Positions 22,165 through 41,496 of a stretch of 64,000 bases of DNA are shown piece after piece (position 1 is the stretch's first letter; the number at the start of each line of letters is the position of its first letter). The stretch lies in assembly GCA_913064775.1 (NCBI GenBank), contig CAJYAD010000014.1, positions 1-64,000 on the forward strand. Reading direction: 5' to 3'. Below the pieces are notes generated by a model. The model did no database searches. It worked only from the letters and a program-made list of their open reading frames with translations, and was not told the origin of the DNA. Source of the DNA: an uncultured Albidovulum sp. (GTDB lineage: Bacteria > Pseudomonadota > Alphaproteobacteria > Rhodobacterales > Rhodobacteraceae). Made by a program: the position numbers and the translations under genes.

Positions 22165-23976
22165 CTATGACTTTCCCAGACCCAGATCGTCCCGGCGGCG
22201 GCGTTCCAGTTCCTGGGTGTAGCGCTTGAGGCTATAGGCTTCGGACAGATAGCCCAGGATCTGAGGATTGGTGGCCGAGGTCACCACGGGCAGGGTTTCT
22301 GCCTGGGCCTCGGCAAACTTGTCCAGCACCGTCTGAATGTCGTCTTGCGGCAGGAAGAACCGGCCCCGGAAGGTGGCCAGATCCTCTGCCACGAGATGGG
22401 GCGCGAGTTCGGTGATCTCGGGGTCATGTGCGGCAGAGACGTCGATCACGCCGGCATATCCGCCATCGGTTCGCACCACGAACAGGGATTTGCTGCTGCC
22501 CAGAGGCACCGTGGCGCGCAACTCGGAAAGCGGCATCGTCAGGGGCACCGTGCGCGCGTCGGTGCGCATCATGCGGCCGGCGGTCAACCCGGTCGTCCAG
22601 CCGATGTCGAATCCGCCGCGCACGGGCAGGCCGCGCAGATGGAAGCGCCAGGTCGAGAACGAGTAGCCGAAGGTCAGCCGCACCGTCGTCGAGGCGATCA
22701 GCACCCCCATGAGGGTGGCCAGGGTGATCGCGAAATCGCCGGTCGATTCCAGCACCAGAAAGACCATCGTGAAGGGCGCGCCGATAATCGCCGCTCCGGC
22801 CGCGCCCATGCCGACCAGCATGAAGGCGGTCCGGTCCGACAGGACAGCCGGATCGATCAGGCCAACTGCATCGACGAAAACCGCGCCCAGCAGCAGCCCG
22901 ATGAAAAGCGAGGACGAGAACAGGCCGCCGCGAAAGCTGGCGCCCAGCGAGATCGCCGAGCCCAGGACCTTGCCGATGAGCAGCAGAAAGATGGGCACCA
23001 AGGCCCATTGCGTCTTCAGGTGGAAATCGATCGCGCCATGGCCCGAGCCAAGGATCTGCGGCGAGCCAAAGGCCAGAAGGCCGACCGCCACCCCTCCGAT
23101 CGCCGGGCGCGCCCAGCCGGGCAGCTTCATCGCCTTCAGCAGCCCTTCGACGGCGGTGGCAAGCCGCATGGTGACGATGCCGACCCCCGCCGCCGCGAAT
23201 CCGAGTAGCGCGAACAGCAGGTAATACATGTGCGGCACGGCGAAACCGCCGAACACGACGAACAGCGGCGCGTCAGAGCGCAACCCTCGGGCCACCAACA
23301 CCGACGACAGGCAGGCGGCCAGCACCGGCGCCAGCAGCTTCGTGGTGTAGCGCGAGTGGATCAACTCGAACCCGTAGAAGGCGCCGGCCAGAGGCGCGTT
23401 GAAGGCCGCCGCGATCGCCGCCGCGGCGCCGGCCGATACCATGGTGCGCTGGTCCTCTCGGCGCAGGTGGAAATATTTGCCGACCGAGGCGAAGATCCCG
23501 GCCCCGAACTGGCTGTATCCCGCTTCCATGCCCACCGAGGCGCCGCAGGCGTTGGAGACGACGGTAAGGCCGGTCAAGCGCGCCGAATCGCGAAAACCGA
23601 GTTGGCCGCCATACAGGGCATTCGCCTCGATAGGGTCGATGATCTCGGTGGGGCGAAGCTTCTGCAAGGCCAGCGTCACAAGGCCAAGGAACAACCCGCC
23701 AATCGCGGGAACCAGCGCCAGCCGCCAGTGATTAACGGCGGTCTGCTCCGAAAGATGCTCGCCGAAAACCAGACCGAAGTTGAGCGACTGCAGCGCCAGG
23801 ACAAGGTCGCGCAGCCCGATCGTTACAAGGCCGACGAAACTGCCCACCACCGCCGCCAGGACGATCTGCGCGAACTCTCGGTTGCGCACCATGCGCCGCA
23901 GTTCTGCCTGACCCAGCCGCGTCGCACGAAGGACGCGGTGCAATCGGCCGGATCGGGGAAGCTGGGACTGCGTCAT
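22165..23976 (-). CDS. ClC-family chloride channel/transporter with C-terminal CBS region
   Basis: This 603-aa protein has a ClC core of about ten or more membrane helices. It carries the filter-type motifs ANALYGGQLGFRDSARL, GASVGMEAGYSQFGAG (gating-Glu position retained in GMEAG) and GASFRGGLFSSSLFIG. A soluble CBS-like regulatory tail spans about 445-603 (FVVRTDGGYAGVIDVSAAHD, LPVVTSATNPQILGYLSEAY). It could exchange chloride for protons or conduct chloride. No strong ribosome-binding site marks the start. I chose the ATG at 23976, since the ORF track uses a TTG at 24090, and 24033 is another ATG. Nothing is seen in 24091-24276. Confidence 0.85.
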   Translation of the reverse strand: MTQSQLPRSGRLHRVLRATRLGQAELRRMVRNREFAQIVLAAVVGSFVGLVTIGLRDLVLALQSLNFGLVFGEHLSEQTAVNHWRLALVPAIGGLFLGLVTLALQKLRPTEIIDPIEANALYGGQLGFRDSARLTGLTVVSNACGASVGMEAGYSQFGAGIFASVGKYFHLRREDQRTMVSAGAAAAIAAAFNAPLAGAFYGFELIHSRYTTKLLAPVLAACLSSVLVARGLRSDAPLFVVFGGFAVPHMYYLLFALLGFAAAGVGIVTMRLATAVEGLLKAMKLPGWARPAIGGVAVGLLAFGSPQILGSGHGAIDFHLKTQWALVPIFLLLIGKVLGSAISLGASFRGGLFSSSLFIGLLLGAVFVDAVGLIDPAVLSDRTAFMLVGMGAAGAAIIGAPFTMVFLVLESTGDFAITLATLMGVLIASTTVRLTFGYSFSTWRFHLRGLPVRGGFDIGWTTGLTAGRMMRTDARTVPLTMPLSELRATVPLGSSKSLFVVRTDGGYAGVIDVSAAHDPEITELAPHLVAEDLATFRGRFFLPQDDIQTVLDKFAEAQAETLPVVTSATNPQILGYLSEAYSLKRYTQELERRRRDDLGLGKS

Positions 23977-24276
23977 AATTGCTTGACCGGGGAAAAGAAA
24001 ATCCGTTTGCCCCGCCCCCCTGCGGCCCCTCATGGGTGGCAGAGCGCCTGCGGATTTCGGATAGGTAGTTGAGCAGTTCAAGTTGGGCAAGCGCGCCGCG
24101 TGCGATGCACCAAATTGGGATGTTGCCGGCCGGACCGCCTAGGCGGTGGCGGGGAACAAGGCGGCTTGCGGCGCGTGCTTGATGTAGTGGCGGGTCAGTC
24201 GTCTTACCGGGGCGATATTAAGACCTGCACAGCTCGGTCCTATCCCGGGCTGCCCCCGATTGGCAAAGCGCGCGCG

Positions 24277-25770
24277 TCAGGCCCCGCGCAGCGCTTTCAG
24301 CGCCGGATAGAGCGCCCGGTAGCGGCCGTATATCTCTTCATAAAGCGCTGTCTCGCGCGGGCGTGGCTCAATCACCCGGCCCGGCTTGACCATCGCCACG
24401 ATGCCTTCGTCGATCGTGCTGAAATACCCCGCGCCCATCGCCGCCAGCACCGCCGCCCCGATCGAGGGCGCATCGCGTGAGGCCGGCACCGCGACCGGCA
24501 GCCCGGCGGTATCGGCGTGGATCTGCAACCACAGATCCGAGGCCGTCGCGCCGCCCCCGATGGTGATCTCTTCACTGCGGCACCCCGCCTCGGCCATCGA
24601 ATCCAGGATCAGGCGGGTGCCAAAGCCGATCCCCTCCATGATCGCGCGAAAGATGTGCTGCGGCTCATGCGCCAGCGTCAGCCCGACGATCGCGCCGCGC
24701 GACAGCGGATCGGTATAGGGCGTCCGGTTGCCCTGAAAATGATCCTGCACGATCAGCCCGTCGGCGCCCGGCTCCAACTCGGCCGCGCGGCGGTTGAGCG
24801 CGTCGAGATCCATCGTGCCATTCATCAGCCGCCCGAGCCAGGCGATGATCGACCCGGTCGATGTCTGGCCGCCTTCGACCATGTAGCGCCCCGGGGCGGG
24901 CAGATCGGAATAGCTGCCCCAGATCCCGGGCGCGTGGATCGCCCGGTCGGTGACGCCGTATTGCAGATGCGACGACCCGGTGATCAACGCCAGTTGCCCG
25001 GGCCGCGCGACCCCCAGCCCGATCATGCCGACGAAGGCATCGACCCCGCCCTGCACCACCTTCACAGAGGGCGACAGATCCAGCGCCTCGGCCGCGCGCG
25101 CCGTCAGCGTGCCGATCACCGCCCCGGTCGCGACCACCTGCGTGGGCCATTTGTCCTTCAGCGCGCCAAGGCCCAGCGCCTCGATCAGCGACAGCGGCCA
25201 GCCGCCATGCGCGGCCGAGTAATGCCAGCGCAACGAGACGTTGTTGAAACTTGCCGCGCGCTCTCCGGTCAGCCGCAGGGTCATGAAATCCTGATATTCA
25301 CAGATCGTCCGGGCGCGGTCGAAGATCCCGGGCTCATGGCGCTTGAGCCATAGCGCCTTGGGGATCATCCACTCGGCCGAGACCGGGCCCTGGCCCGCGC
25401 CGTTCACCCGTAGGGCGGCATCGGCGGTGGCAAGGACGGCCTCGGCCTCCTGCCCCGCACGCACGTCCATCCAGATGATCGCCGGTCGCAGGGCGTCGCC
25501 GTTCTCGTCCAGCGCGACCACCGAGCAGGAGGTCGTCGCCAGGCTGATCGCCTCGATCGCGCGGCGGTAGATCCCGGCCTCGGCGATCGCCTTGCCGGCG
25601 GCGGTGACGAAGGCGCGCCACCAATCCTCGGGGTCCTGCTCGGCCCGCGCGCCGGCGCTGAACCGGGTTTCATACGGAATCGCCGCGCTGCCAAGGCAGG
25701 CGCCGGACAGATCATAGACCCGCGCCCGCAGGCTTTCGGTGCCGCCATCCGCCGTCAGGAAATAGGCCAT
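24277..25770 (-). CDS. FGGY-family carbohydrate kinase
   Basis: This 497-aa protein has both FGGY domains. The N-terminal part is FLTADGGTESLRARVYDLSG with the family Trp segment PAIIWMDVRAGQEAE. The catalytic Asp region is VVQGGVDAFVGMIGLG, and the C-terminal part has ITGSSHLQYG and the late ITIGGGATASDLWLQI. FGGY kinases phosphorylate sugars or polyols at a terminal hydroxyl; LsrK and XylB belong here. GGGGGAGAC precedes the ATG. It is the last gene of an operon with an acetoin-dehydrogenase-type complex, 66 bp after the E2 gene, opposite an Lsr-like importer. The substrate is probably an imported deoxy or dicarbonyl sugar (inference). Confidence 0.85.
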   Translation of the reverse strand: MAYFLTADGGTESLRARVYDLSGACLGSAAIPYETRFSAGARAEQDPEDWWRAFVTAAGKAIAEAGIYRRAIEAISLATTSCSVVALDENGDALRPAIIWMDVRAGQEAEAVLATADAALRVNGAGQGPVSAEWMIPKALWLKRHEPGIFDRARTICEYQDFMTLRLTGERAASFNNVSLRWHYSAAHGGWPLSLIEALGLGALKDKWPTQVVATGAVIGTLTARAAEALDLSPSVKVVQGGVDAFVGMIGLGVARPGQLALITGSSHLQYGVTDRAIHAPGIWGSYSDLPAPGRYMVEGGQTSTGSIIAWLGRLMNGTMDLDALNRRAAELEPGADGLIVQDHFQGNRTPYTDPLSRGAIVGLTLAHEPQHIFRAIMEGIGFGTRLILDSMAEAGCRSEEITIGGGATASDLWLQIHADTAGLPVAVPASRDAPSIGAAVLAAMGAGYFSTIDEGIVAMVKPGRVIEPRPRETALYEEIYGRYRALYPALKALRGA

Positions 25771-25836
25771 GTCTCCCCCCTCATGTCTCCTCCCTCATCT
25801 TCTGTCAGGCGCGGCGTTCGGCGTCGCCCGGGGCGC

Positions 25837-27153
25837 TCATCCGGTGCCGTCCCCAAGCCAGCGCCCCAGAAGCGCCGCGACCTCGCGCGGCCGGTCCCAA
25901 TGCGGCATATGCCCCGAGGCGGCGATCAGATGGATCGCGACGGCTGGCGGCAGGGCCGTGACCTGCTGCCAGGGAATGATACGGTCCTCGAGACCGAACA
26001 CCACCCGCACCGGCATTCTTTGCGTGAATTCCCCCAGCGCGGGCAGAAGATCCACGCGCTGTCCGCCCGGACCCAGGATGTGCCCGGTCAGCGCCTTCAG
26101 CCGGCCACGGCCCGCCTCGGCGGCGAAGCGGTCCAGGGCGGCGACCGAAAGCGCCTGCTCGCGCAGCGCGACGCGGCGCAGAAGATGCGCCACCTCGCCC
26201 GGCGAACTGGCCGCCGCCATGCCGCGCAGGAAGGTGCTGTCGATCTCGAGCCCCAGCCCGACGGGCGCCAGCAGCGTGAGGCTGGCAATCCGGCCCGGCA
26301 TCGCCCGGGCAAGCGCGACGGCGGCGGTGGCCCCAAGGGAATGGGCCACGACATCGATCCGCCCTCCGATCCCCAGCGCGCTCAGAAAATCCGCAAGCGG
26401 CGCACCAAGATCAGCGGGCGTGGCGGCCTCGATCCCGGTCGCGCCGTGGCCGGGCAGATCCGGCACAAGGACGCGGTGACCGGCGCGGGCAAGGCCGGTG
26501 GCGGTTGCCGCCCAGGTCGTGTGATCCCCGGCGAAGCCATGAAGCAAAAGCACCACGGGGCCGTCGGCGGGGCCAAGGGTGGCAAAGGCCATCCGGCCCT
26601 GCGGTAAATCGGCAAAGGACGGCGGCGGCGCCGTATCGGCAACCGCCCCCGCCCCGTCAGCGGCACCAGCGGTGGTGGCGGTGGCGGCGGCAAGCACATC
26701 TTCCTTCTCGATCCGCCCGCGCGGCCCCCGCCCGGCAAGCGCGCCAAGATCCACCCCGTGCTGACGCGCCAGCCTGCGTGCCAGCGGCGTGGCGCGCAGC
26801 GGTCCGCCCTCGGGCCGCGCCGGGGCTGGCGGCGCGGAGGGCGCGGCAGGCGCGGCCGAGGGCCGGTCGCCCCCCTGCCCCGGGGCCGGCCGCGATCTGT
26901 CCGCGTCCGTCGAGTCGACCTCGATCCGCGCGATCGGTTCGCCCACCGCGACCATCTCGCCTTCTTCGCAAAGGATCTCGACCAATCGCCCCGCCTGAAG
27001 GGCCGGAAATTCGGCGACGGTCTTGTCGGTCTCGATCTCGAGGATCGCCTCGCCGCGCGCGAATTCCTCGCCCGGGCGCTTCAGCCAGCCGGCGATGCGG
27101 CCCTCGTCCATGGTCTCTCCCAGACGGGGCATGTTCAGCATGCGGGTCACCAT
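25837..27153 (-). CDS. AcoC-type E2: lipoyl domain fused to alpha/beta hydrolase
   Basis: This 438-aa protein has three parts. A lipoyl domain (1-80) has the lipoyl Lys at about 44 in EIETDKTVAEF. A linker holds an E3-binding-like segment (ATPLARRLARQHGVDLGALA, about 115-150). The alpha/beta hydrolase fold follows, with nucleophile Ser in VAHSLGATAA, Asp in FGLEDRIIPW and His in ASGHMPHWDRP. This combination is characteristic of the acetoin dehydrogenase acetyltransferase AcoC rather than of pyruvate-dehydrogenase E2. It passes the acyl group from E1 to CoA. The ATG at 27153 overlaps the E1-beta stop (ATGGTGA); ATG 27141 is an alternative. No E3 gene is in the window. Confidence 0.83.
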   Translation of the reverse strand: MVTRMLNMPRLGETMDEGRIAGWLKRPGEEFARGEAILEIETDKTVAEFPALQAGRLVEILCEEGEMVAVGEPIARIEVDSTDADRSRPAPGQGGDRPSAAPAAPSAPPAPARPEGGPLRATPLARRLARQHGVDLGALAGRGPRGRIEKEDVLAAATATTAGAADGAGAVADTAPPPSFADLPQGRMAFATLGPADGPVVLLLHGFAGDHTTWAATATGLARAGHRVLVPDLPGHGATGIEAATPADLGAPLADFLSALGIGGRIDVVAHSLGATAAVALARAMPGRIASLTLLAPVGLGLEIDSTFLRGMAAASSPGEVAHLLRRVALREQALSVAALDRFAAEAGRGRLKALTGHILGPGGQRVDLLPALGEFTQRMPVRVVFGLEDRIIPWQQVTALPPAVAIHLIAASGHMPHWDRPREVAALLGRWLGDGTG

Positions 27154-28124
27154 CTGACCAGCCGCTCTGCGGTCTGGACGATGAGATCGACGCCGGGAAC
27201 GCTGGCGCCCTCCAATGCCGGCGACACCGCGATCGGCACGTCCTCTCCGGCAAGCCGCACGACCGGCTGTTCGAGAAAGTCGAAACATTCCTCGGAGATC
27301 CGGCTGGACAGTTCGGCCGCGACGCCCGCAGTCAGCGCGCCCTCGCTGACCACCATCGCCTTGCCGACGCGCTCGACCTCGGCGCGCAGGGTGTCGATAT
27401 CCAGCGGGTTGAGCGTGCGCAGGTCGATCACCGTCGCCTCGATGCCGGTTTCGGCCAGCCGCGCGGCGGCCTCCAGCGCGAAATGGAGCTGACGCGAATA
27501 GGTGACGATCACCAGATCATCCCCTATTCGCCGCACCGCCGCCTTGCCCCAGGGCGGCACCGGCGCGGTCAGATCGACCGCTTCCTTGCGCGCGTAAAGC
27601 GCCTTGTGCTCGATGAACACCACCGGATCGGGCAGCGTCAGGCTGTGGCGCAGCAGGTGGTAGGCATCGGCCACGGTCGCGGGCATCGCCAGCCGCAGCC
27701 CCGGCGTGTGCATCACCCAGGCTTCAAGGCTTTGCGAATGCTGCGCCCCGGCCGAGCGGCCGGTCCCGCCCTGAGTGCGCAGCACCATCGGCACGCCGAT
27801 CTGACCGCCGAACATGTAGCGGATCTTGGCGGCCTGGTTCGCCAGCTGATCCATCGACATGCCGAGAAAGTCGATATACATCAGCTCGGCCACCGGCCTG
27901 AGCCCGGTCATCGCCGCCCCCACCGCGACCCCGACGATCGCGGGTTCGGAAATCGGCGTGTCGATCATTCGGTCCGGCCCGAAGGTCTGGATCAGGTCCT
28001 TGGTCACGCCGTAAGCGCCGCCATAGCGGCCGACCTCTTCGCCGATGACGACGATATCGGCATCTTCGGTCATCGCCTCTGCCAGCGCGCGGCGCAGGGC
28101 ATCCCGATAGGTCAGGGTCTCCAT
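27147..28124 (-). CDS. Thiamine-dependent dehydrogenase E1 beta subunit (AcoB-like)
   Basis: This 325-aa protein is typical of E1 beta: METLTYRDALRRALAEAM, DADIVVIGEEVGRYGGAYGV, FGPDRMIDTPISEPAIVGVA, RSAGAQHSQSLEAWVMHTPG and a C-terminal transketolase domain from about 200. It pairs with E1 alpha to form the decarboxylating or acyloin-cleaving enzyme. The start at 28124 has GGAGGTGAG upstream, 4 bp after the E1-alpha stop; the ORF track runs 46 codons too far. The AcoC-type E2 next door favours acetoin-like substrates over 2-oxo acids, which is inference. Confidence 0.85.
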   Translation of the reverse strand: METLTYRDALRRALAEAMTEDADIVVIGEEVGRYGGAYGVTKDLIQTFGPDRMIDTPISEPAIVGVAVGAAMTGLRPVAELMYIDFLGMSMDQLANQAAKIRYMFGGQIGVPMVLRTQGGTGRSAGAQHSQSLEAWVMHTPGLRLAMPATVADAYHLLRHSLTLPDPVVFIEHKALYARKEAVDLTAPVPPWGKAAVRRIGDDLVIVTYSRQLHFALEAAARLAETGIEATVIDLRTLNPLDIDTLRAEVERVGKAMVVSEGALTAGVAAELSSRISEECFDFLEQPVVRLAGEDVPIAVSPALEGASVPGVDLIVQTAERLVRW

Positions 28125-28128
28125 CCGC

Positions 28129-29193
28129 TCACCTCCGCGCCAGAACACGGTCAAGGCGGGTGCGCAGCGGCTCTGGCTCGGGTTCGCCCGCCGCGAAGAC
28201 ATCGCGGAACATCGCGGCTTGCTCGGGCGCCTCGGCGGCGATGGCGAATTCAATGCTCGCATCCATCTCGCGACCGATCTCGGCGTCTAGCTGGTCCAGC
28301 GTGGCCGCGTCGGCAAGCGCCTCGGCAATCAGCCGGTCGCGGGCGAAGGCCACCGGGTCCTTCTTGCGGCCCTCGGCCTCTTCCGAGGCGTCGCGATAGG
28401 GGCTTTTGTCCATCCGCGCATGGCCGAAAAACCGGTAGCAGGAGACCGTCAGAAACCCCGGCCGTCCGGCCCGCGCGGCATCGATCATCTCGCCGGCGAC
28501 CTGCCGCACGGCCTCGACATCCAGCCCGTCGACCGCCCGCCCATCCAGCCCGAAGGCCTGGGCGCGTTTCTCGAAATCGGTGGCCCGGGTCGCCTGATCG
28601 ACCCGGGTGCCCATGCCGTATTGGTTGTTGATGCAGACGAACAGCACCGGCAGATCCCAAAGCGCCGCCATGTTCATGCTCTCGTACAGGATGCCCTGCT
28701 GCATCGCGCCGTCGCCGAAGAAGGCGACCGAGACCGATCCGAGGCGCTTGCGCTTGCTGCTCAGGCCGGCGCCGACGACCGCGGGAATGCCGCCGCCAAC
28801 GATCGCATTCGCCCCCAGATGCCCCAGCCCCATGTCGGCGATATGCATCGAGCCGCCCTTGCCATGGCAATAGCCGTCACGCTTGCCGGCGATCTCGGCC
28901 ATCATGCGCTGGGGTTCGGCACCGCGCGCAAGAAAGATGCCGTGGCCGCGATGATGGGTGGTGAAGCTGTCCTGAGGCCGCATCCCGGCGCAGATCCCGG
29001 CGGCGGCGGCCTCCTCACCGATCGACAGATGCAGCATCGAACCCGCGCTTTCGCCGCGCAGGAACAACTCGCCGACCCGCTCCTCGAAGCTGCGGATACG
29101 GCGCATGGTCCGGTAGAGATCGGCAAGCGCCCGATTGTGGCCCGCGTCGCCCGTCGCCCCCCCCGAGTCCTGCCCCGCCTCTGCGCTCTGCAT
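28129..29193 (-). CDS. Thiamine-dependent dehydrogenase E1 alpha subunit (AcoA-like)
   Basis: This 354-aa protein has LYRTMRRIRSFEERVGELFL, FTTHHRGHGIFLARG and the thiamine-diphosphate motif starting GDGAMQQG and closing INNQYGMGTR about 25 residues later. RFFGHARMDKSPYRD follows, close to the phosphorylation-loop position of the family. It carries the cofactor site of the E1 heterotetramer. It is the first gene of the leftward operon. The ATG at 29193 is preceded by only a weak purine-rich site. The first 20 residues (AEAGQDSGGATGDAG) are low in complexity. Confidence 0.85.
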   Translation of the reverse strand: MQSAEAGQDSGGATGDAGHNRALADLYRTMRRIRSFEERVGELFLRGESAGSMLHLSIGEEAAAAGICAGMRPQDSFTTHHRGHGIFLARGAEPQRMMAEIAGKRDGYCHGKGGSMHIADMGLGHLGANAIVGGGIPAVVGAGLSSKRKRLGSVSVAFFGDGAMQQGILYESMNMAALWDLPVLFVCINNQYGMGTRVDQATRATDFEKRAQAFGLDGRAVDGLDVEAVRQVAGEMIDAARAGRPGFLTVSCYRFFGHARMDKSPYRDASEEAEGRKKDPVAFARDRLIAEALADAATLDQLDAEIGREMDASIEFAIAAEAPEQAAMFRDVFAAGEPEPEPLRTRLDRVLARR

Positions 29194-29266
29194 GTCCTGG
29201 TACCCGTCCTTTCACCTCGGACAGCCCGGCCTCTTTCATCTGCGCCGCCGCCAAGTGATATGTGTG

Positions 29267-29333
29267 CATCTGTACGACTGATGTACAAAAAATCAAGCCT
29301 AAATTTTCTTTTGCTCATCCCGTGTACAGATGT
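29267..29333. promoter_or_regulatory. Divergent control region with repeated TGTACAGATG-like sites
   Basis: Between the E1-alpha start and the regulator start lie GCATCTGTACGACTGATGTAC (29267-29287) and TGTACAGATG (29324-29333). These give three half-sites of the form TGTACANNTG in alternating orientation, with AT-rich DNA between them. Position and symmetry suggest operators for the adjacent SorC-family regulator. Confidence 0.5.
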
Positions 29334-29363
29334 TATTCAAGCCACAAAGCCGGGGCGACATGG

Positions 29364-30383
29364 ATGAGTGACCGAGAGCAATCCGAACATGACATGATGG
29401 TCCGCGCGGCCTGGCTCTATTATGCCGCCGAGCAGACGCAGAGCATGATCGCGACAACCCTTGGCGTGTCGCGGGTCAAGGTGGCGCGGCTGATTGCAGA
29501 TGCGAAGGCCAACGGCATCGTCACCATCAACATCGACCATCGCCTGTCGACGATGTGCGAGTTGGAAGAGAAGATCCGCCGCCACTACGGGCTTCGGTTT
29601 TGCTACATCACCCCCGCCCTGGCGACCGACAGCAACCCGCGCGGGCTTAGCGATACCGACCGCGACGCCCTGGCCCGGCGCAGCGTCGGGATGACGGCCG
29701 CGCGGGTGCTGCGCAACAAGCTGGCCCAGAACCAATTCGACGGCACGGTCATCGGCCTGGCCTGGGGCCGTACGATCAGCGCCATGGCGGATGCCTTTCA
29801 GCCGATCAACGCGCCTGCCACGCAATTCGTCTCGCTGCTTGGCTCGCTCACCCGCTCGGCCTCGGCCAACCCGTTCGACGTGGTGCAGAAATTCGCCTCC
29901 AAGACCGGGGGCGAGGCGAAATACCTGCCGGTTCCCTTCATCGCCGACAGCGTGGAGGATCGCGACGTCTTCCTTCAGCAGCGTGTGGTGCAGGACGTGA
30001 TCCGCACCGCGAACCGGGCAACGGCCTGCTTCATCAGCGTGGGCGAATGCGATTCCGGCTCTTTCCTGTCGCAATATGGCTATCTGTCGGGGGATGACCT
30101 GACGCGCCTGCAAAAACGCGGCGCGGTCGGCGACACGCTGGGGCTTTTCTTCAACAGCGAAGGCCAATTCATCGACTCCGAGCTTTGCCGGAGGGCATTG
30201 GCGATTGACCTGTCGACCTTGCGCGAAAGCGAGATCGTGCTGCTTTCGGCAGGGCTTGCGAAACTGAAAGCCACCCAGGCGATCCTAAAGGCCGGCTTCA
30301 TCACCGGGCTGGTGATCGACGGTGACAGCGCGACGCGTCTGGGCGCGGCCGCAGACGAGGAAAGCGAGAAAATGCGCGCCTAG
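29364..30383 (+). CDS. SorC/DeoR-family sugar-binding transcriptional regulator (LsrR-like)
   Basis: This 339-aa protein has an N-terminal helix-turn-helix (AAEQTQSMIATTLGVSRVKV) and the SorC sugar-binding domain (FDGTVIGLAWGRTISAMADA, FISVGECDSGSFLSQYGYLS, ILKAGFITGLVIDGDSA). LsrR, which binds phospho-AI-2, has this architecture; such proteins repress until the phosphorylated sugar binds. The start at 29364 gives MSDREQSEHDMMVRAAWLYY; the ORF track adds 34 codons crossing the operator sites. It sits between the E1/E2/kinase operon and the importer operon, like LsrR between lsrK and lsrACDB, so it probably controls both. Confidence 0.82.
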   Translation: MSDREQSEHDMMVRAAWLYYAAEQTQSMIATTLGVSRVKVARLIADAKANGIVTINIDHRLSTMCELEEKIRRHYGLRFCYITPALATDSNPRGLSDTDRDALARRSVGMTAARVLRNKLAQNQFDGTVIGLAWGRTISAMADAFQPINAPATQFVSLLGSLTRSASANPFDVVQKFASKTGGEAKYLPVPFIADSVEDRDVFLQQRVVQDVIRTANRATACFISVGECDSGSFLSQYGYLSGDDLTRLQKRGAVGDTLGLFFNSEGQFIDSELCRRALAIDLSTLRESEIVLLSAGLAKLKATQAILKAGFITGLVIDGDSATRLGAAADEESEKMRA

Positions 30384-30428
30384 CTACGCTAGCGCCGCGA
30401 CATCGGGAATCGCACGAAGGGGGAAATT

Positions 30429-31301
30429 ATGGAAATCGGATTCATCGGCCTCGGGATCATGGGACAGGGCATGGTGCGCAACCTGCTGAAGGCGGGGCAT
30501 TCCGTCACCGCCTGGAACCGCACCCCCCGCCCCCTGCCCGACGATCTGGGCGCGGCACGGATCGCCGGATCACTGGCCGAGGCCGTGGCCGACAAGCCGC
30601 TTGTCATGGTCTGCCTGACCGGACCCGAGGCACAGCAGGCCTGCCTTCCGGGGCCCGAGGGCGCCTTTGCCAACGCGGCGGCCGGCACGCTGATCGCCGA
30701 CGCGACAACGACCGATCCCGCCGTTTCGCTGGAACTGGCCAAAGCCGCGGGCGCGCGGGGGCTGCGTTACCTCGACACGCCGGTCTTCGGCTCGCGCAAC
30801 GAGGCATGGGAGGGGCGGCTCGATTTCGTTTGCGGCGGGGCGCGCGGCGATTACGACGAATTGTCCCCGGTCTTGGCGCCGCTTGCCGCGACCACCCATT
30901 ACCTTGGCGGCAATTCCAAGGGCGCCTGCGCCAAGCTGGTGGGCAACCTGCTTGTGGCGGCGCAGATGGCCTCGCTGGGCGAAGCGCTTGCCCTGGCGCG
31001 CCGCGCCGGCCTCGACCCCGAGGCCCTGATGGGTTTCCTCGACGTGACCGATTTTTCCTCGGCCCTGATCCGCGGCGTCGGTCGCGATACGCTGGCCGGC
31101 AATTACGCGCCGAATTTCTACCTCAGACACATGCTGAAGGACGCCCGCCTGATCGGGCGCTTCGCCGGCGACAATGGTGTGCCGGTGCCGCTGGCCGCGC
31201 AGATCGCCGAGCAATACCAGGGCGCGGTGAACCGGGGCCTCGGCGATCTCAACGCCTCGGCCCTGCACAAGCTCGCGTTTGAGATGTCCGGGCTCGACTA
31301 A
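30429..31301 (+). CDS. NAD(P)-dependent beta-hydroxyacid dehydrogenase family protein
   Basis: This 290-aa protein begins MEIGFIGLGIMGQGMVRNLL with a Rossmann GxGxxG. It then shows TTTDPAVSLELAKAAGARGL, YLDTPVFGSRNEAWEGRL (substrate loop) and the catalytic-Lys stretch GNSKGACAKLVGNLL. These are the markers of the 3-hydroxyisobutyrate / tartronate-semialdehyde / glyoxylate-succinic-semialdehyde reductase family. It may reduce a semialdehyde released by the neighbouring E1 complex, or oxidise the substrate before cleavage; the sequence does not decide. It lies 45 bp after the regulator. The following 578 bp (31302-31879) hold no gene. Confidence 0.82.
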   Translation: MEIGFIGLGIMGQGMVRNLLKAGHSVTAWNRTPRPLPDDLGAARIAGSLAEAVADKPLVMVCLTGPEAQQACLPGPEGAFANAAAGTLIADATTTDPAVSLELAKAAGARGLRYLDTPVFGSRNEAWEGRLDFVCGGARGDYDELSPVLAPLAATTHYLGGNSKGACAKLVGNLLVAAQMASLGEALALARRAGLDPEALMGFLDVTDFSSALIRGVGRDTLAGNYAPNFYLRHMLKDARLIGRFAGDNGVPVPLAAQIAEQYQGAVNRGLGDLNASALHKLAFEMSGLD

Positions 31302-31693
31302 CCGCAGGCCCGGCCAAACTGCACCAGGGGAGGGGTGCGCGATGAGGAAGGCACTGACTGAACTGCACCGCGATGTGACGATCGGGGCGACGACCGGTGT
31401 GAGGCGCCAGTTGCCGCGCGTTCCGGACAGTGCCGCCAGACCGGCGACCGCGCCGAGGCAATCGCCCCGCCCCCCGCGCCGATGTCGAGCGGATGTCTGG
31501 CAAGGGAGGGCATGCGAATAGAACATCCAGGATGTCTGAATATATCAGATTGACAGCGGGATCAAATCAGAAATCGAAATCCGTATCGCAAATTGCATCC
31601 GGAATATATGGAATTTTCAATTTCGAATTTACCTCCAAAGATATTTTAATAACTCATGCATACTTTATAAGCTTTACGCGGCCACCAATTGTA

Positions 31694-31724
31694 TTGACGC
31701 ATATCTTGATCGGTGAAATTATTT
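31694..31724 (+). promoter_or_regulatory. Candidate promoter for the ABC importer operon
   Basis: In the AT-rich part of the 578-bp gap, TTGACG (31694-31699) is followed after 17-19 nt by AAATTATT as a weak -10, about 155 bp upstream of the binding-protein gene. The AT-rich tract 31530-31740 contrasts strongly with its surroundings. Confidence 0.35.
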
Positions 31725-31879
31725 TCCTCAATTCGCCCAAAGACATCCGGTTTCAGCCCCGGCCACTTCGAGCCCGAGGCATCTTTGAAGGCAAAAAGAC
31801 GAGGCGCGGAGGCGTAATTCGCGTTGGAGGACAGGGTAAAGGGTTGAAGCCTTAGACAATCTTTAACGGGAGGAAAGTC

Positions 31880-32908
31880 ATGAAAAAGAACGTGAAACTG
31901 GGCGCCTTGGGCGTCTGCATGCTGACCGCGGGATTCGTGGTGAACAGCGCCCCGGCCGCTTCGGCCAAGCAGGTCGATCCGCACGACATGCGGTTCGTGA
32001 ACGTCATCAAGGTCACGGCCAATGCCTGGTTCCAGAACATGGAGCACGGCGTGAAAGCATTCGCCAAGGACACCGGCGTCAAGGCAACCCAGACCGGCCC
32101 CGCGCAGGCGACATCCGAGGGTCAGGTGTCGATCATCCAGAACCTGATTCCGCAAAAGCCCACGGCGATCGGCGTCGATCCGAACTCGCAGCAGGCGCTT
32201 GAGGGGGTGCTGGCCAAGGCGCAGAAGGCCGGCATCTTCGTGTTCTCGCAAGAAGCGCCGCAGCTCAAGCACACCAACCTTGATCTAGAGGCCTTCAGCA
32301 ACGCCGAATACGGCAGGCAGATGATGGATGCGCTGGCGTCCTGCATGGGCGGCAAGGGCGAATATGTCACCTTCGTCGGCCATCTGACCGCCGCCAGCCA
32401 CATGGCCTGGGCCCAGGCCGAACTGAACGAGGCGAAGGCCAAGTTTCCCGGCATCAAGCGCGTGACCGGGCCGGTCGTGGCGAACGAGAATTCCGAGGTC
32501 GCCTATCAGAAGACCAAGGAGCTTCTGGCCAAGTACCCGCATATCAAGGGCTTTCTTGGCAGCGCCTCGACCGATATCCCCGGCATCGCCCGGGCGGTCA
32601 CCGAAGTCGGCCTAAGCGGGAAGGTCTGCATCGCCGGCACCAGCGTGCCGTCGCTGACCCGCAACTACGTCAACGCGGGCACCATCCAGGATGTCTTCTT
32701 GTGGGATTCCGCGCTGACCGCCCATGCCGTCATGAACGGCGCGTTGATGATGCTTCAGGGCAAGAAGGTCGGCGTCGGCACCGATCTGGGCGTGCCGGGC
32801 TATACCAACCTCAAGAAATGCGAAGGCTCGGACGTCAGCGCGCATTGCTTCCAAGGCAACGCGATCCTGAAACTGACCAAGGCCAACATCGGAAAATACA
32901 ACTTCTGA
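31880..32908 (+). CDS. Periplasmic sugar-binding protein, LsrB-like
   Basis: This 342-aa protein has a Sec signal peptide (VKLGALGVCMLTAGFVVNSA) and a type-1 periplasmic binding fold. It shows WFQNMEHGVKAFAKDTGV, SEGQVSIIQNLIPQKPTAIG, GTIQDVFLWDSALTAHAVMN and the ending TKANIGKYNF. The SEGQV..I..LI, GTI..xFLWD and NIGKYxF elements parallel LsrB, the AI-2 receptor, though the ligand pocket cannot be judged by eye. GGGAGGAAAG precedes the ATG. It delivers its ligand to the double ATPase and two permeases that follow. Confidence 0.83.
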   Translation: MKKNVKLGALGVCMLTAGFVVNSAPAASAKQVDPHDMRFVNVIKVTANAWFQNMEHGVKAFAKDTGVKATQTGPAQATSEGQVSIIQNLIPQKPTAIGVDPNSQQALEGVLAKAQKAGIFVFSQEAPQLKHTNLDLEAFSNAEYGRQMMDALASCMGGKGEYVTFVGHLTAASHMAWAQAELNEAKAKFPGIKRVTGPVVANENSEVAYQKTKELLAKYPHIKGFLGSASTDIPGIARAVTEVGLSGKVCIAGTSVPSLTRNYVNAGTIQDVFLWDSALTAHAVMNGALMMLQGKKVGVGTDLGVPGYTNLKKCEGSDVSAHCFQGNAILKLTKANIGKYNF

Positions 32909-33006
32909 TCTGACCCAGGGCCTCGCCCGTCCAGGGCGGGGCCCGCCAATGCGGTCCGGTGGGCGCGTGCCCCCGACGCCGCACCAAAGGGGGGGGCGAA
33001 AGGCAC

Positions 33007-34500
33007 ATGGCGGATGAGGCAATTCTCTCGGTCAAGGGCATCGAGAAGCGGTTCGCGGGCGTGCGCGCCCTCGATGGCGTGTCGCTTTCGCTTTATCCGG
33101 GCAAGGTCCATTGTCTGGCGGGCGAGAACGGCTCGGGCAAGTCGACCCTGATCAAGACGATCAGCGGCGTCGAGGTGCCCGATGCCGGCACCATCACGCT
33201 GGGCGGGCATACCTATCAGTCGCTGACGCCGCGCATCGGCATCAAGGGCGGCATTCAGGTGATCTATCAGGACCTGTCGCTGTTCGCCAATCTCAGCATC
33301 GCGGAAAACATCGCCATCGCGCCGATCATCGCCCGGGGCGGGATGCGGTTCAGCCCGGGCGAGGCGCGCGCCATCGCCGAAAAGGTCGCCGCGCGCATCC
33401 ATGTCGACCTGCCGTTTTCGGCGCTGGCCGCCGGTGTCTCAATCGCCCAGCGCCAGCTGACCGCGATCTGCCGGGCGCTGGCGCAGGACGCGCGGGTGCT
33501 GATCATGGATGAACCCACCACCGCCCTGACCCTGCGCGAGGTCGACAGCCTTTTCGCCACCGTGAAGCTTTTGCGCGCACAGGGCGTCTCGGTCGCTTTC
33601 GTCAGCCACAAGTTCGAAGAGATCCTGGGCATCTCGGATGAGATCACCGTCATCCGCAACGGCCGCGTCGTCGCCGATGGCCCCGCGTCCGGCTTCGACC
33701 ATGCGTCGCTGAGCGAGGCGATGACCGGGCAGAAGGTCAACGCGCTGGGACGGCGCGGCCCGGATGAAACCGCCACCCGGGTGGCGCTGCGCGCCGACAG
33801 GATCGGGGTCGAGGGATTGCTTCAGGATGTATCGCTGAGCCTGAACCATGGAGAGATCCTTGGGGTGACCGGGCTGCTGGGATCCGGGCGCGAAGCCGTC
33901 GCCGAGGCGCTTTTCGGCATTCATCCCATCACCTCGGGCCAGATCAGCATCGACGACCAGCCCTGCGCGATCCGGCAGGTGTCGGATGCGATCGCCCACG
34001 GCATCGGCTATGTGCCCGGCGACCGGCTGAGCGAGGGGCTGTTTCTGAACCACAGCGTCGCGCAGAATGTCATCGCCGCCAGCACCGACAAGATCCCCCT
34101 GACCATGGGGCTGGTGCTGAAACGCTCGGTCTCGGCCATCGCCCGGCGGATGATCAAGGCCTTCGGCATCAAGACGCCGTCGGATTCGGTCGCGGTGCGC
34201 ACCCTGTCGGGCGGCAACCAGCAGCGCGTGGTGCTGGCGAAATGGTTCGTCGACAAGCCGCGCATCCTGATCCTGAACGGCCCCACGGTCGGCGTCGACA
34301 TCGGCTCCAAACGCGAAATCACCTCGCTGCTGCGCGACCTGAGCGCCGATGGCACCGCGATCATCGTCATTTCCGACGACGTGCCGGAACTGGCCGAAAT
34401 CTCGGACCGCATCATCGTGATGCGCAACGGCGCGGTAGCGTCCGAGTTGCAGGGCGCCGACATCTCCGAGGGCCGCATCCTGCAGGAGCTGGCCGCATGA
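33007..34500 (+). CDS. Sugar ABC transporter ATP-binding protein (two NBDs)
   Basis: This 497-aa protein has two ABC domains. The first has Walker A GENGSGKST, Walker B VLIMDEPTTAL and a modified signature (VSIAQRQLTAICRAL). The second has a degenerate Walker A (GLLGSGREAV) and a strong signature LSGGNQQRVVLAKW. This asymmetry is typical of the CUT2 family (RbsA, LsrA, XylG). I chose the ATG at 33007 (MADEAILSVKGIEKRF) with GAAAGG upstream; the ORF track starts 16 codons earlier. It energises the importer formed with the next two permeases. Confidence 0.88.
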   Translation: MADEAILSVKGIEKRFAGVRALDGVSLSLYPGKVHCLAGENGSGKSTLIKTISGVEVPDAGTITLGGHTYQSLTPRIGIKGGIQVIYQDLSLFANLSIAENIAIAPIIARGGMRFSPGEARAIAEKVAARIHVDLPFSALAAGVSIAQRQLTAICRALAQDARVLIMDEPTTALTLREVDSLFATVKLLRAQGVSVAFVSHKFEEILGISDEITVIRNGRVVADGPASGFDHASLSEAMTGQKVNALGRRGPDETATRVALRADRIGVEGLLQDVSLSLNHGEILGVTGLLGSGREAVAEALFGIHPITSGQISIDDQPCAIRQVSDAIAHGIGYVPGDRLSEGLFLNHSVAQNVIAASTDKIPLTMGLVLKRSVSAIARRMIKAFGIKTPSDSVAVRTLSGGNQQRVVLAKWFVDKPRILILNGPTVGVDIGSKREITSLLRDLSADGTAIIVISDDVPELAEISDRIIVMRNGAVASELQGADISEGRILQELAA

Positions 34501-34557
34501 CCGCGCGGCTCCCCCCTTCCCGCACCTCACTTTCCCTCGTCTCGCTGGCGGTATCTC

Positions 34558-35598
34558 ATGACAGCATCTGATTTCCTGGCGCGGCTGCGCGGCCGCCACA
34601 ACGAAGGCGTCGTCGCCCTGACGATCATCCTTCTGGCGCTGATTGTCGGCGCCATGAACCCCGGCTTTCTTGGCCTTGCGACGGTGTTCAACGTGCTGCG
34701 CAATTCCTATGAGCCGCTTCTCTTTGCCCTGGGCGTGATGCTGGTGCTGCTGATGGGCGGGATCGACGTCTCTTTCGACGCCGTGGGGATCTTCGCGGCC
34801 TATACCACCTCGGTGTTGACGGCGAATGCGCTGCTGCCCGGCCATCTTTGGCTGATGTTCGTGATCTCGACGCTGATCGGCGCGGGGCTGGGTGCCATCA
34901 ACGCCCTGATCGTGTCGCTGGGCCGGCTGTCGATCCTGATCGTCACGCTGGGCACGCGGGGCATTTTCGTCGGGGTGATGCTGACCTTCATCGGCTCATC
35001 CTTCATCAGCAACCTGCCGATGTCGCTGCAATCCTTCAACGTCGATTACCTCTACCGGACCCATACCGACACCGGCCAGCTGGCAGGGCTGCAGATGCTG
35101 GTGGTGCCGATCGCCATCGTCTGCCTGCTGATCGACTTCGGCCTGCGCTTCACCGTCATCGGGCGCGGCATCTACGCGGTCGGCGGCAGTGAAGAGGCCG
35201 CACGGCGGGCCGGCTTTTCGGTCGGCATGATCAAGACGGTCGTCTTTTGCTGCGCCGGCGCCCTGGCCGGTGCCGCCGGTATGGTCCATGTCAGCCTGAT
35301 CGGCTACGCCAACCCGCAAGACATCGTCGGCAACGAATTGATCGTCATCGCCGCCGTGGTGCTGGGCGGCGTGTCGATCTTCGGCGGCCGGGGCAGCGTG
35401 CTGGGCACGGTTCTGGGCGTGCTGCTGCTGGAGCTGATCCAATACAGCCTGATCATCCTCGGGGTGCAAAGCTCCTGGGACCATGTCGCGATCGGCGGCA
35501 TGATCTTCGTGGGCGTCGCCCTTCAGGTCCGACGGTCCCCCGGGGCCAGGGCCAACCTGTTCGCAAAACGCCCGAAACCGAGCCGGAGCCCGTCATGA
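34558..35598 (+). CDS. Sugar ABC transporter permease 1 (LsrC/RbsC family)
   Basis: This 346-aa protein has about 8-10 membrane segments and the CUT2 permease motifs LLMGGIDVSFDAVGIFAAY, YAVGGSEEAARRAGFSVGMI and VVLGGVSIFGGRGSVLGTVL. It forms one half of the translocation pore. The start ATG lies 57 bp after the ATPase stop. Its stop overlaps the next permease start by ATGA, so the two are made together. Separate permease genes, as in LsrC/LsrD, differ from the single RbsC type. Confidence 0.86.
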   Translation: MTASDFLARLRGRHNEGVVALTIILLALIVGAMNPGFLGLATVFNVLRNSYEPLLFALGVMLVLLMGGIDVSFDAVGIFAAYTTSVLTANALLPGHLWLMFVISTLIGAGLGAINALIVSLGRLSILIVTLGTRGIFVGVMLTFIGSSFISNLPMSLQSFNVDYLYRTHTDTGQLAGLQMLVVPIAIVCLLIDFGLRFTVIGRGIYAVGGSEEAARRAGFSVGMIKTVVFCCAGALAGAAGMVHVSLIGYANPQDIVGNELIVIAAVVLGGVSIFGGRGSVLGTVLGVLLLELIQYSLIILGVQSSWDHVAIGGMIFVGVALQVRRSPGARANLFAKRPKPSRSPS

Positions 35599-36641
35599 CC
35601 CAGAACGCCTCGCTCGTCCAATCCCTCGCCCGCGCGACCGCGTCGCTGCGGCAAGAGCACAGCCCGCTGCCGATCCTTGGCGTGACGGTGCTGATCTTCG
35701 CGATCTTCGCGGTGCTCGCGCCCGGCAGTTTTCCGACCTTCGCGAACATGTCCTCGATCGGCTTTCAGGTGCCCGAGACGGCGCTGCTGGGGCTGGGGGT
35801 CATGCTTTCGATGGTGCTTGGCGGGATCGACCTTTCGGTGGTGGCCGTCGCCGACCTGTCGGGCGTGGCGATGGTGCAATACTTCACCTATGTCGGCGCG
35901 ACGCAACCCGGGCACGGCGGGCCGCTGGTGATCGCCACGGGCATCGGTATCGCGCTGCTGGTCGGGGCGGTCTGCGGGGCAATCAACGGGCTGATCATCG
36001 GCCGGCTAGGGGTTCTGGCGATCCTTGCAACCCTGGCGACGATGGAGGTCTTCGGCGGGCTGGCGATCGCCTGGACCGGGGGGAACACGCTTCCCGACGT
36101 GCCCACCCCCATTCTGGATATCGCCAACCTCAGCCCCGCCGGCATCCCGTTTCCGGCGATCATCCTGCTGGTCTGCGCGCTGTTCACCGCGCTGTTGCTG
36201 AACGGCAGCCGGTTCGGCATTCGCGCCACCCTGGTCGGGGCGAACCCGCGCGCGGCGAACCTGTCGGGCATCCGCGACAAGGGGGTGCAACTGGGCATCT
36301 ATACCGCAAGCGGGCTGCTGGCCTCGGTGGCCGGGATCATCTTCGTGGCCCGCACCGCCGGGGCCACGCCGAATTACGGAGAGGGCTCTTATGTGCTGCT
36401 CGCCGTCGTCATCGCGGTTCTGGCGGGGGTCGATCCGCTTGGCGGGTTCGGCACCGTGCTGGGGGTGTTGCTGGCGGGATTCGCGCTGGACATGATCCGG
36501 GCGGGCTTCGTCGCGCTGGAACTGAACCAGTTCCTTTACGAGGCGGCGCAGGGCGGGATCCTGATCTTCGTGCTGGCCGCGGGCTCGCTCATGCGGGGAG
36601 ACATGCACTGGCTTGCGCGGCTGAGGAAGACGCCAAAATAG
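35595..36641 (+). CDS. Sugar ABC transporter permease 2 (LsrD/RbsC family)
   Basis: This 348-aa protein has repeated membrane segments with MLSMVLGGIDLSVVAVADLS, IRATLVGANPRAANLSGIRD and VLAGVDPLGGFGTVLGVLLA, again CUT2 permease signatures. It partners the preceding permease. The ORF track begins at 35247 inside the upstream gene, but the true start is the ATG at 35595, overlapping the previous stop. It is the last gene of the importer operon; 86 bp of empty DNA separate it from the cobalamin cluster. Confidence 0.86.
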   Translation: MTQNASLVQSLARATASLRQEHSPLPILGVTVLIFAIFAVLAPGSFPTFANMSSIGFQVPETALLGLGVMLSMVLGGIDLSVVAVADLSGVAMVQYFTYVGATQPGHGGPLVIATGIGIALLVGAVCGAINGLIIGRLGVLAILATLATMEVFGGLAIAWTGGNTLPDVPTPILDIANLSPAGIPFPAIILLVCALFTALLLNGSRFGIRATLVGANPRAANLSGIRDKGVQLGIYTASGLLASVAGIIFVARTAGATPNYGEGSYVLLAVVIAVLAGVDPLGGFGTVLGVLLAGFALDMIRAGFVALELNQFLYEAAQGGILIFVLAAGSLMRGDMHWLARLRKTPK

Positions 36642-36727: not shown

Positions 36728-37489
36728 CTACGCGGATGCCAGCACCAGCCAGACGCACAGCTCGGCGATCACCTGCGCGGCGCCCAGCACATCACCAGTG
36801 AAACCCCCGATCTGGCGCCGGGCAATCTGGGCGATCAGCGCGGCGGCGAATGCGGCCGCCAATACCGGCCCAACCAGGAACGGCAGTGTCGCAATCGCAA
36901 TCACCAAGGCCACCCCGACACCAGCCCAGACCTGCCCCACCCCGATCCGATCCGCCGCCGATTGGCCCAGCCCGGCGCTGCGCGCAGAGGGCATCAACCG
37001 CATGATCACCGGCAGTGGCGCCCGGCTCAGCGCCGCGACACCTGCCATCAATGCGACCGGATGCGCCCCGGGCAGGACCTCGGACAGCAGCACCACACGC
37101 AAAAGCAGCGCCAGCCCCAGTGCGATCGCGCCATAGCTACCCAGCCGGCTGTCGCGCATGATCTCCAGCTTGCGGGCCCGGTCGGCGCCGCCGCCAAAGC
37201 CGTCCGCGAGATCGGCCAGCCCGTCCTCATGCATGGCGCCGGTCGCCAGCGCCCCCGCCGCCACCGCAAGGATCGCCGCAGGCAAAGCCGTCAGCCCCAC
37301 GCTCTGCGCCGCCCAGAAGACCAGCCCCGCGATCACCCCCACCACGGCGCCGGCCAGCGGATAGGCCCAGACCGCGGCGGACAGCGGCGGCGCCGGATCC
37401 AGTCGCCCGGCCGGCAGCCGCGTCAGCAATATCAGCGCCAGCCGCAGCTCTGCCCAGCGCTGCCTTGCCCAGGGGGACCCGCCGGTCAT
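36728..37489 (-). CDS. cobS: Adenosylcobinamide-GDP ribazoletransferase (cobalamin synthase)
   Basis: This 253-aa membrane protein has a hydrophobic body and the CobS/CobV signature GAMHEDGLADLADGFGGGAD, followed by RDSRLGSYGAIAL. It joins adenosylcobinamide-GDP to alpha-ribazole to complete the nucleotide loop. It is called CobV in P. denitrificans nomenclature. It is the last gene of cobU-cobT-cobS, with its ATG overlapping the cobT stop (ATGA). Confidence 0.92.
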   Translation of the reverse strand: MTGGSPWARQRWAELRLALILLTRLPAGRLDPAPPLSAAVWAYPLAGAVVGVIAGLVFWAAQSVGLTALPAAILAVAAGALATGAMHEDGLADLADGFGGGADRARKLEIMRDSRLGSYGAIALGLALLLRVVLLSEVLPGAHPVALMAGVAALSRAPLPVIMRLMPSARSAGLGQSAADRIGVGQVWAGVGVALVIAIATLPFLVGPVLAAAFAAALIAQIARRQIGGFTGDVLGAAQVIAELCVWLVLASA

Positions 37490-38532
37490 GCGCCCGAAAT
37501 CCCGGCCTCGGCAAAGGTCGCCATGCCGTTATGCGCCTCAAGCGCCGCGCGCAGCACGCCCAAAGCCACCGCCGCGCCCGAGCCCTCGCCCAGCCGCATC
37601 CCCAGATCCAGAAGCGCCCGCTTCTCGATCGCCGACAGCAGCCGCCGGTGCCCCGGTTCGGCGCTGGCGTGGCCGACAAGGCAATGATCGAGCGCCCCCA
37701 CCCCCAGCGGATGCAGCACCGCCGCCGAGGCCGTGCAGATGAAACCGTCCAGGATCACCGGCACCTTTCGCGACCGCGCCGCAAGCAGCGCCCCGCAAAT
37801 CGCCGCCTGCTCGCGCCCGCCGAAAGCCGCAAGCAGAGCCAGCGGATTGCCCAGCGCCCCGGCGTGCCGCACCATCCCGGCCTCGATCGCATCGACCTTC
37901 CGGGCAATCCCGTCCGGATCCGACCCGGTTCCCGGCCCGACCCATTCCCAGCCGTCGCCGCCGAAGCTTGCCCGCGCCAGCGCCGCCGCGACGGTCGAAT
38001 TGCCGATCCCCATCTCGCCCAGCAGCACCACATCCGCCCGCGGATCCAGCGCCGCCGCCCCGCGTGCCATCGCGTCCAGCACCTCGGCCTCGGTCATCGC
38101 CGGGCCTTGGGTGAAATCCCCGGTCGGCCGGTCGAGATCCAGCGCGACGACGGACAATTCCGCCCCGTTTGCCCGGCACAGCTGGTTGATCGCCGCGCCG
38201 CCGGACTGGAAATTCGCGACCATCTGCGCCGTGACCTCCTGCGGGAAGGGGTTCACGCGCTGCGCGCAGATGCCATGATTGCCGGCGAAGACGAGCGCCT
38301 GCGCGTGGTTGATCACGGGCCGCGCATTGCCCTGCCACCCGGCCATGAAGACCGCGAGATCCTCAAGCCGGCCAAGCGACCCCGGCGGTTTTGTCAACGC
38401 GTCCTGATGGCGGCGGGCGGCGGCGGCGGAAGGCTCGCTCGCCTCGGGCAGGCGCGCCAGCCGGCCACGCAATTGCGCGAAGGAGGAGACCGGGAAGATC
38501 GTGTCGCTCATGTCGTTTCGCCTTTGCGTCAT
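37486..38532 (-). CDS. cobT: Nicotinate-nucleotide:dimethylbenzimidazole phosphoribosyltransferase
   Basis: This 348-aa protein (CobU in P. denitrificans naming) has LTKPPGSLGRLEDLAVFMAG, VFAGNHGICAQRVNPFPQEV, LLGEMGIGNSTVAAAL and the catalytic-Glu ending DLGMRLGEGSGAAVALGVL. It makes alpha-ribazole phosphate from dimethylbenzimidazole, which bluB in this cluster supplies. The ATG at 38532 overlaps the cobU stop and has AAGGTG close by; ATG 38511 (MSDTIFPV) with AAAGGCG is a credible alternative start. Confidence 0.93.
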   Translation of the reverse strand: MTQRRNDMSDTIFPVSSFAQLRGRLARLPEASEPSAAAARRHQDALTKPPGSLGRLEDLAVFMAGWQGNARPVINHAQALVFAGNHGICAQRVNPFPQEVTAQMVANFQSGGAAINQLCRANGAELSVVALDLDRPTGDFTQGPAMTEAEVLDAMARGAAALDPRADVVLLGEMGIGNSTVAAALARASFGGDGWEWVGPGTGSDPDGIARKVDAIEAGMVRHAGALGNPLALLAAFGGREQAAICGALLAARSRKVPVILDGFICTASAAVLHPLGVGALDHCLVGHASAEPGHRRLLSAIEKRALLDLGMRLGEGSGAAVALGVLRAALEAHNGMATFAEAGISGA

Positions 38533-41489: not shown

Positions 41490-41496
41490 GGGCGTC

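Follow-up and report, generated by a model that had tools for sequence, protein, structure and literature searches.

A 64,000-nucleotide stretch of DNA from an uncultured Albidovulum sp. (Rhodobacteraceae; contig CAJYAD010000014.1, positions 1 to 64,000; hereafter the window) contains, between positions 24277 and 36641, ten genes in two divergent operons which on a slight balance of probability constitute a SorC-controlled catabolic system for a methyl-ketone sugar, that is, a 1-deoxyketose or a precursor of one. A narrower proposition, which we would put somewhat short of an even chance, is that the thiamine- and lipoyl-dependent complex encoded here is dedicated to converting a phosphorylated 1-deoxyketose to acetyl-CoA and an aldose phosphate, the oxidative reverse of 1-deoxy-D-xylulose 5-phosphate (DXP) synthase, and that it has spread through the alphaproteobacteria under the control of a single SorC operator, while importers and entry enzymes are exchanged around it.

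The proteins of this region were profiled against NCBIfam and Pfam models with curated cut-offs, and a sequence check found all ten genes intact, with ATG starts and no internal stops, in the order and of the families given in the preliminary description. The minus strand carries E1 alpha (28129–29193; PF00676), E1 beta (27147–28124; NF006667 at 346 bits, over the cut-off), an AcoC-type E2 (25837–27153) with lipoyl (PF00364, motif ETDK), E3-binding (PF02817) and alpha/beta-hydrolase acyltransferase (PF00561) domains, and a pentulokinase-like FGGY carbohydrate kinase of 497 amino acids (24277–25770; PF00370/PF02782) that keeps the catalytic aspartate in GGVD when aligned with XylB and LsrK. The plus strand carries a SorC/DeoR-type sugar-binding transcriptional regulator (29364–30383; PF04198), a HIBADH/tartronate-semialdehyde-reductase-type beta-hydroxyacid dehydrogenase (30429–31301; PF03446/PF14833, best models at 142–150 bits, below their cut-offs), a periplasmic sugar-binding protein of the LsrB/RhaS-like subfamily (31880–32908; PF13407, Peripla_BP_4), a CUT2-type double ABC ATPase (33007–34500; PF00005 twice, best model AraG at 422 bits, below cut-off) and two CUT2 permeases (34558–35598 and 35595–36641; both PF02653, BPD_transp_2). 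These coordinates incorporate refined starts for E1 beta (28124), E2 (27153), the SorC regulator (29364) and the ABC ATPase (33007), the last of which has a possible alternative start at an in-frame GTG upstream, at 32959.

When the ten-gene neighbourhood was looked for in other genomes, the whole set was recovered from Allgaiera indica, in identical order and at 74–93% identity, and a core of SorC regulator, E1 alpha, E1 beta, AcoC-type E2 and FGGY kinase was intact in all 23 complete clusters found (three further clusters, L026, L028 and L077, end at contig edges and fall outside this count). Five of the 23 were retrieved by a kinase-only search, and the core is present in these too. The hosts are Rhodobacteraceae, rhizobia, Azospirillum and relatives, and the retention of the core across three alphaproteobacterial orders, together with the gene order and identity in A. 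indica, places the ten-gene set beyond chance association. The module is rare: the counts are 8 in 199 genomes at family level, 2 in 385 at class level and 2 in 399 at phylum level.

Relatives more distant than A. indica keep the core and vary the other genes. Type A clusters (rhizobia, Azospirillum, Nitratireductor, Tritonibacter and others) comprise the SorC gene, a different importer (binding protein, ATPase and one permease), E1 alpha, E1 beta and E2, followed by a CMD/AhpD-like protein, the kinase and one or two short-chain dehydrogenases/reductases (SDRs). Type B clusters, mostly in Rhodobacteraceae, comprise E1 alpha, E1 beta, E2, the kinase and an importer resembling the window's. DhaK-DhaL and an aldo-keto reductase often accompany them, a D-psicose-3-epimerase-like gene sometimes. 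The window cluster is of type B, with the beta-hydroxyacid dehydrogenase, limited among the clusters to the window and Allgaiera, in place of DhaKL and the reductase. A ketose 3-epimerase-like gene adjoins E1 in several clusters. Two unrelated importer types thus interchange while the enzymes stay constant, and about half of the clusters are without an LsrB-like importer. Kinase relatives at 45–50% identity (Skermanella, Rubrobacter) sit in neighbourhoods without E1/E2 and carry no substrate clue, the contexts of DhaK relatives were varied and uninformative, and a search for plasmid relatives of the beta-hydroxyacid dehydrogenase returned a single weak match. In one cluster (L030, Sinorhizobium meliloti Ak57) the annotation divides E2 between two open reading frames (ORFs), one for a short hypothetical protein and one for a hydrolase, and a frameshift is possible; the sequence record is called pSymB but, at 3.7 Mb, looks like the chromosome. 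Two other loci (L088, L091) contain genes annotated as SorC-DhaK fusions, beside which lie two DhaL genes and a relative of the window importer.

Comparison of the gaps beside the regulator gene revealed a conserved paired operator, (ACAAATGT) N11 (ACATTTGT), in which the half-site ACA(A/G)ATGT or its complement is repeated at a spacing of 19 bp. Across 19 clusters, some of which are close kin so that the counts are not all independent, 23 half-sites fell within the gaps as against 0.17 expected from shuffles, and half-site density was 7.1 per kb in the gaps as against 0.016 elsewhere in the loci, a difference of about 450-fold. Pairs 19 bp apart are present in L016, L030, L031, L035, L036 and L037. 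Since the motif had been defined by inspecting these same gaps, it was then checked on six loci outside the defining set, three of which (L076, L108, L111) have a half-site pair at exactly 19 bp in the gap. In the window itself the predicted operator (29266–29333, on neither strand in particular) is degenerate: GCATCTGT-N11-ACAAAAAA (29266–29292) aligns with the Allgaiera site, an additional half-site ACAGATGT lies at 29326–29333, and CATCTGTAC/GTACAGATG form a 9-bp inverted pair in the gap. Promoter and terminator scans found no site in the divergent gap, and an automatic inverted-repeat search found no pair there; the operator came from comparison of the gaps. These predicted sites suggest that a single type of regulator governs clusters whose importers differ, and one operator across different importers argues for one pathway. 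The earlier suggestion that importer, kinase, regulator and thiamine/lipoyl complex act as one co-regulated system is therefore borne out by the 23 complete clusters and their shared operator. A separate gap of 578 bases between the dehydrogenase and binding-protein genes (31302–31879) is AT-richer, poorly conserved with Allgaiera and devoid of the SorC half-site; it may carry a promoter of its own, and a weak sigma-70-like match lies at 31694.

The complex had been described as of the acetoin-dehydrogenase type, which is accurate for E2, whereas E1 falls outside the acetoin clade proper. The E2 scores 334 bits on the acetoin-E2 model NF011457 (cut-off 307), and its alpha/beta-hydrolase domain has the serine elbow AHSLG along with the Asp and His; the AcoC-type E2 of Paracoccus pantotrophus likewise combines lipoyl and alpha/beta-hydrolase acyltransferase domains. 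In trees, the E1 alpha and E1 beta sequences from every cluster group together (support 100/99), and true acetoin E1 (represented by L081, L084, L070 and L071, and in the E1 beta tree by L074 as well) is separate; the cluster sequences are 41–45% identical to AcoABC E1. The clade-specific lid loop of E1 alpha, GHARMDK, follows an active-site histidine, and its Arg260 and Lys263 are invariant (21/21), whereas acetoin E1 has E/N and A/P/V at these positions; His80, His125 and Arg197 are further clade-specific residues. In E1 beta, a clade-specific Arg123 sits five residues before the active-site His128 (motif AQHSQ), the active-site histidines of E1 being those that we take to be such from an alignment with human pyruvate dehydrogenase (PDH) and general knowledge. 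Because these basic lid residues are invariant where the acetoin enzymes are acidic or neutral, the substrate is read as phosphorylated, and a basic lid would suit a phosphorylated, hydroxylated fragment in the E1 pocket. The cluster has no E3 gene, and the other E1 alpha copies in the genome are 41% and 36% identical and lie beside pyruvate- and branched-chain-type partners. A second, distinct E1/E2 clade, with Lys/Arg at the lid positions of Arg260/Lys263, was seen in sugar contexts (L080, L082, L083, L072, L073), where its neighbours are a SorC regulator, phosphotransferase-system glucitol genes, a PfkB kinase, fba and a 440-residue NAD(P)H-dependent oxidoreductase; it is possibly another undescribed sugar-cleaving complex.

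From the gene set, its conservation and co-regulation, and the clade and residues of E1, we infer a substrate and a series of reactions. The CUT2 ABC transporter would import the sugar and the FGGY kinase would phosphorylate its far end, after which E1 alpha/beta with thiamine diphosphate would cut the bond between the ketone carbon and the next carbon and retain the two-carbon unit. This unit would be oxidised onto the lipoyl arm of E2, from which the alpha/beta-hydrolase-type domain would transfer it to CoA to yield acetyl-CoA (an acetyl product is presumed because the E2 is AcoC-type), while a housekeeping E3 would reoxidise the lipoyl group. The other fragment would be released as an aldose phosphate, which would be glyceraldehyde 3-phosphate in the case of a 1-deoxypentulose such as 1-deoxy-D-xylulose. 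In other lineages the SDR dehydrogenases may make the 1-deoxyketose from a 1-deoxyalditol, and the ketose 3-epimerase may correct its configuration. An acyloin-type sugar such as a 1-deoxyketose, one of the substrates proposed in the preliminary description, would be the most economical and is the best available reading; that it is a pentulose is no more than a best guess within the class.

The proposed chemistry has precedents that run in the opposite direction. A 1986 paper, to judge by its title, reportedly describes 1-deoxyketoses from PDH and acetoin dehydrogenase. The reactions of DXS, of xylulokinase on 1-deoxy-D-xylulose and of carboligation by PDH (PMC3424233) involve the same bond and the same two-carbon thiamine intermediate, but they are biosynthetic or side reactions, whereas the cluster is proposed to be catabolic and to cleave by way of a CoA-acetylating E1/E2. 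Given pyruvate and glyceraldehyde, purified PDH yields 1-deoxy-D-xylulose, XylB phosphorylates 1-deoxy-D-xylulose, and aceE (PDH) mutants make DXP in vivo (PMC3424233). The proposed kinase and E1/E2 would suffice to convert 1-deoxy-D-xylulose to acetyl-CoA and glyceraldehyde 3-phosphate, in keeping with the small number of genes in the window cluster.

A further parallel comes from the acetoin systems (AcoABC of P. pantotrophus, the Acinetobacter operons, L081 and L084), which like the cluster have E1 alpha, E1 beta and E2, and which share CMD/AhpD-like and SDR neighbours with some of the clusters. In P. pantotrophus the acetoin operon encodes a sigma-54 regulator along with AcoX, acetoin reductase and 2,3-butanediol dehydrogenase. 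A CMD/AhpD-like protein accompanies AcoX and both of these enzymes in a true acetoin operon; the type A counterpart is 38% identical to it with CxxC kept, and the type A SDRs are 39–40% identical to the acetoin reductase of that operon. A type A cluster thus looks like an acetoin operon redirected towards sugars, in which, by analogy, the conversion of a 1-deoxyalditol to a 1-deoxyketose would parallel that of 2,3-butanediol to acetoin.

Several observations weigh against the 1-deoxyketose pathway as drawn. The E1 subunits fall outside the acetoin E1 clade, and the E1 positions near the active site are placed through the human PDH alignment. If the FGGY kinase phosphorylates the sugar, there is no evident need for the DhaK/DhaL of many clusters, although they may act on an unphosphorylated fragment or on a second substrate, and the beta-hydroxyacid dehydrogenase of the window has no clear step in the scheme. 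Type A binding proteins resemble ribose-type and not deoxysugar proteins. Lastly, the operator motif was not found in three of the six hold-out loci, all three of which have an epimerase-like gene.

One rival reading has as substrate a ketose that is ordinary or branched (xylulose, ribulose, apulose or a matching polyol), with the complex releasing glycolyl-CoA or serving as a transketolase-like donor. The FGGY kinase scores best as a xylulokinase/ribulokinase, type A clusters pair SDRs with a ribose-like binding protein, and the apiose pathway similarly pairs an FGGY kinase, acting on apulose, with a two-subunit transketolase-type thiamine enzyme, which differs from the cluster in having no lipoyl E2 and in transferring a group where the cluster would acylate CoA. 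We nonetheless consider such a substrate unlikely: an intact lipoyl E2 with an acetoin-type acyltransferase, superfluous for transketolase chemistry, is conserved throughout, glycolyl-CoA is a poor metabolite, and relatives of the window binding protein occur in deoxysugar clusters. These relatives, about 39–40% identical, adjoin deoC, ribokinase, RbsD/FucU or aldehyde dehydrogenase genes, which are typical of 2-deoxyribose use; they count in favour of the 1-deoxyketose reading, as does an LsrB-like protein from S. meliloti that takes L-rhamnose as a ligand (PMC3454389). The clusters with deoC and ribokinase (L090, L092) have in common with the window cluster a related binding protein, a CUT2 importer and a deoxysugar, but would cleave by an aldolase to acetaldehyde in place of the proposed thiamine/lipoyl cleavage; their binding proteins are annotated as autoinducer-2 proteins, which looks wrong.

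It is more doubtful still that E1/E2 oxidatively decarboxylates a 2-oxo acid of the pathway (one that the beta-hydroxyacid dehydrogenase might, for instance, help to make out of a sugar acid), so that kinase and complex act on different intermediates. Pyruvate and branched-chain enzymes are among the E1 relatives and the window does have a HIBADH-type gene, but that gene is found in only two clusters, the E2 acyltransferase domain is of the acetoin and not the 2-oxoacid type, and CUT2 importers with an FGGY kinase point to neutral sugars.

The preliminary description had derived the cluster from the lsr system, and a variant in which autoinducer-2 (AI-2) is imported and phosphorylated and the complex cleaves the diketone in place of LsrFG must be weighed. 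The E. coli lsrRKACDBFG operon does share a SorC regulator, an FGGY kinase and a CUT2 importer with the cluster, and there is distant similarity to LsrB, LsrA, LsrK and LsrR, but this set co-occurs in many sugar operons. The kinase scores 287.6 bits on the xylulokinase model TIGR01312 as against 175 bits for autoinducer-2 kinase (both below cut-off, at 380 and 528), and the regulator scores 179 bits on the Bacillus DeoR model (NF053881) as against 122 bits for LsrR (both below cut-off, 486 being needed for LsrR). The binding protein is LsrB-like at family level, as described, but its best match in the PDB is an Ochrobactrum protein (5bra), with LsrB a distant relative. At the LsrB ligand positions, which we take to be K35, D116, D166, Q167, P220 and A222, the window has K, E, S, H, S and S, so that only Lys35 is kept. 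Neither LsrF nor LsrG is in the window cluster, and a genome-wide search for LsrF, which did not cover LsrG, found no close LsrF (best match 29% over 160 residues, outside the cluster). Thiamine cleavage of a diketone would, moreover, release an acid and not a triose phosphate, and about half of the clusters have a non-LsrB-like importer and SDR dehydrogenases that AI-2 would not need. With most of the LsrB residues lost, LsrK and LsrR outscored and no close LsrF in the genome, the AI-2 part of the substrate proposal fails and an AI-2 system is very improbable.

Least probable of all is that the cluster serves acetoin/2,3-butanediol use and that the sugar genes alongside are unrelated to it, for although the E2 matches the acetoin model and the CMD and SDR genes have parallels there, the E1 clade stands apart, AcoX, AcoR (the sigma-54 activator) and butanediol dehydrogenase are found in none of the annotated clusters nor in the window, the kinase is always present, there is a link to an ABC sugar importer, and in one genome (G065) an AcoC-type cluster (L071) exists separately from the cluster described here (L024).

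On the far side of the importer lies a late cobalamin-biosynthesis cluster (36728–43093) with cobS, cobT, cobU/P, ribazole phosphatase, cbiB, a cobD-type decarboxylase and bluB; within it, a gene at 39682–40548 looks like a GHMP kinase and matched no NCBIfam family. To the left are an IS110-family transposase and two overlapping ORFs resembling an IS5-type transposase (19264–21208), with a ClcB-like chloride channel (22165–24090) between these and the cluster.

The component families are all known, and no description of the gene combination or of the implied reaction was found in the open-access literature, which, with subscription journals outside the search, is weak evidence that the combination is undescribed, as it appears to be. 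If the 1-deoxyketose pathway is correct, it would represent sugar breakdown in which an acetoin-dehydrogenase-like complex acts on a sugar phosphate and yields acetyl-CoA directly, bypassing pyruvate. It would also give a function to a recurring gene set that is now annotated as pyruvate dehydrogenase plus xylulokinase and would correct automatic autoinducer-2 labels on related binding proteins, and it would mean that 1-deoxyketoses, or the corresponding alditols, are real carbon sources in soil and sea.

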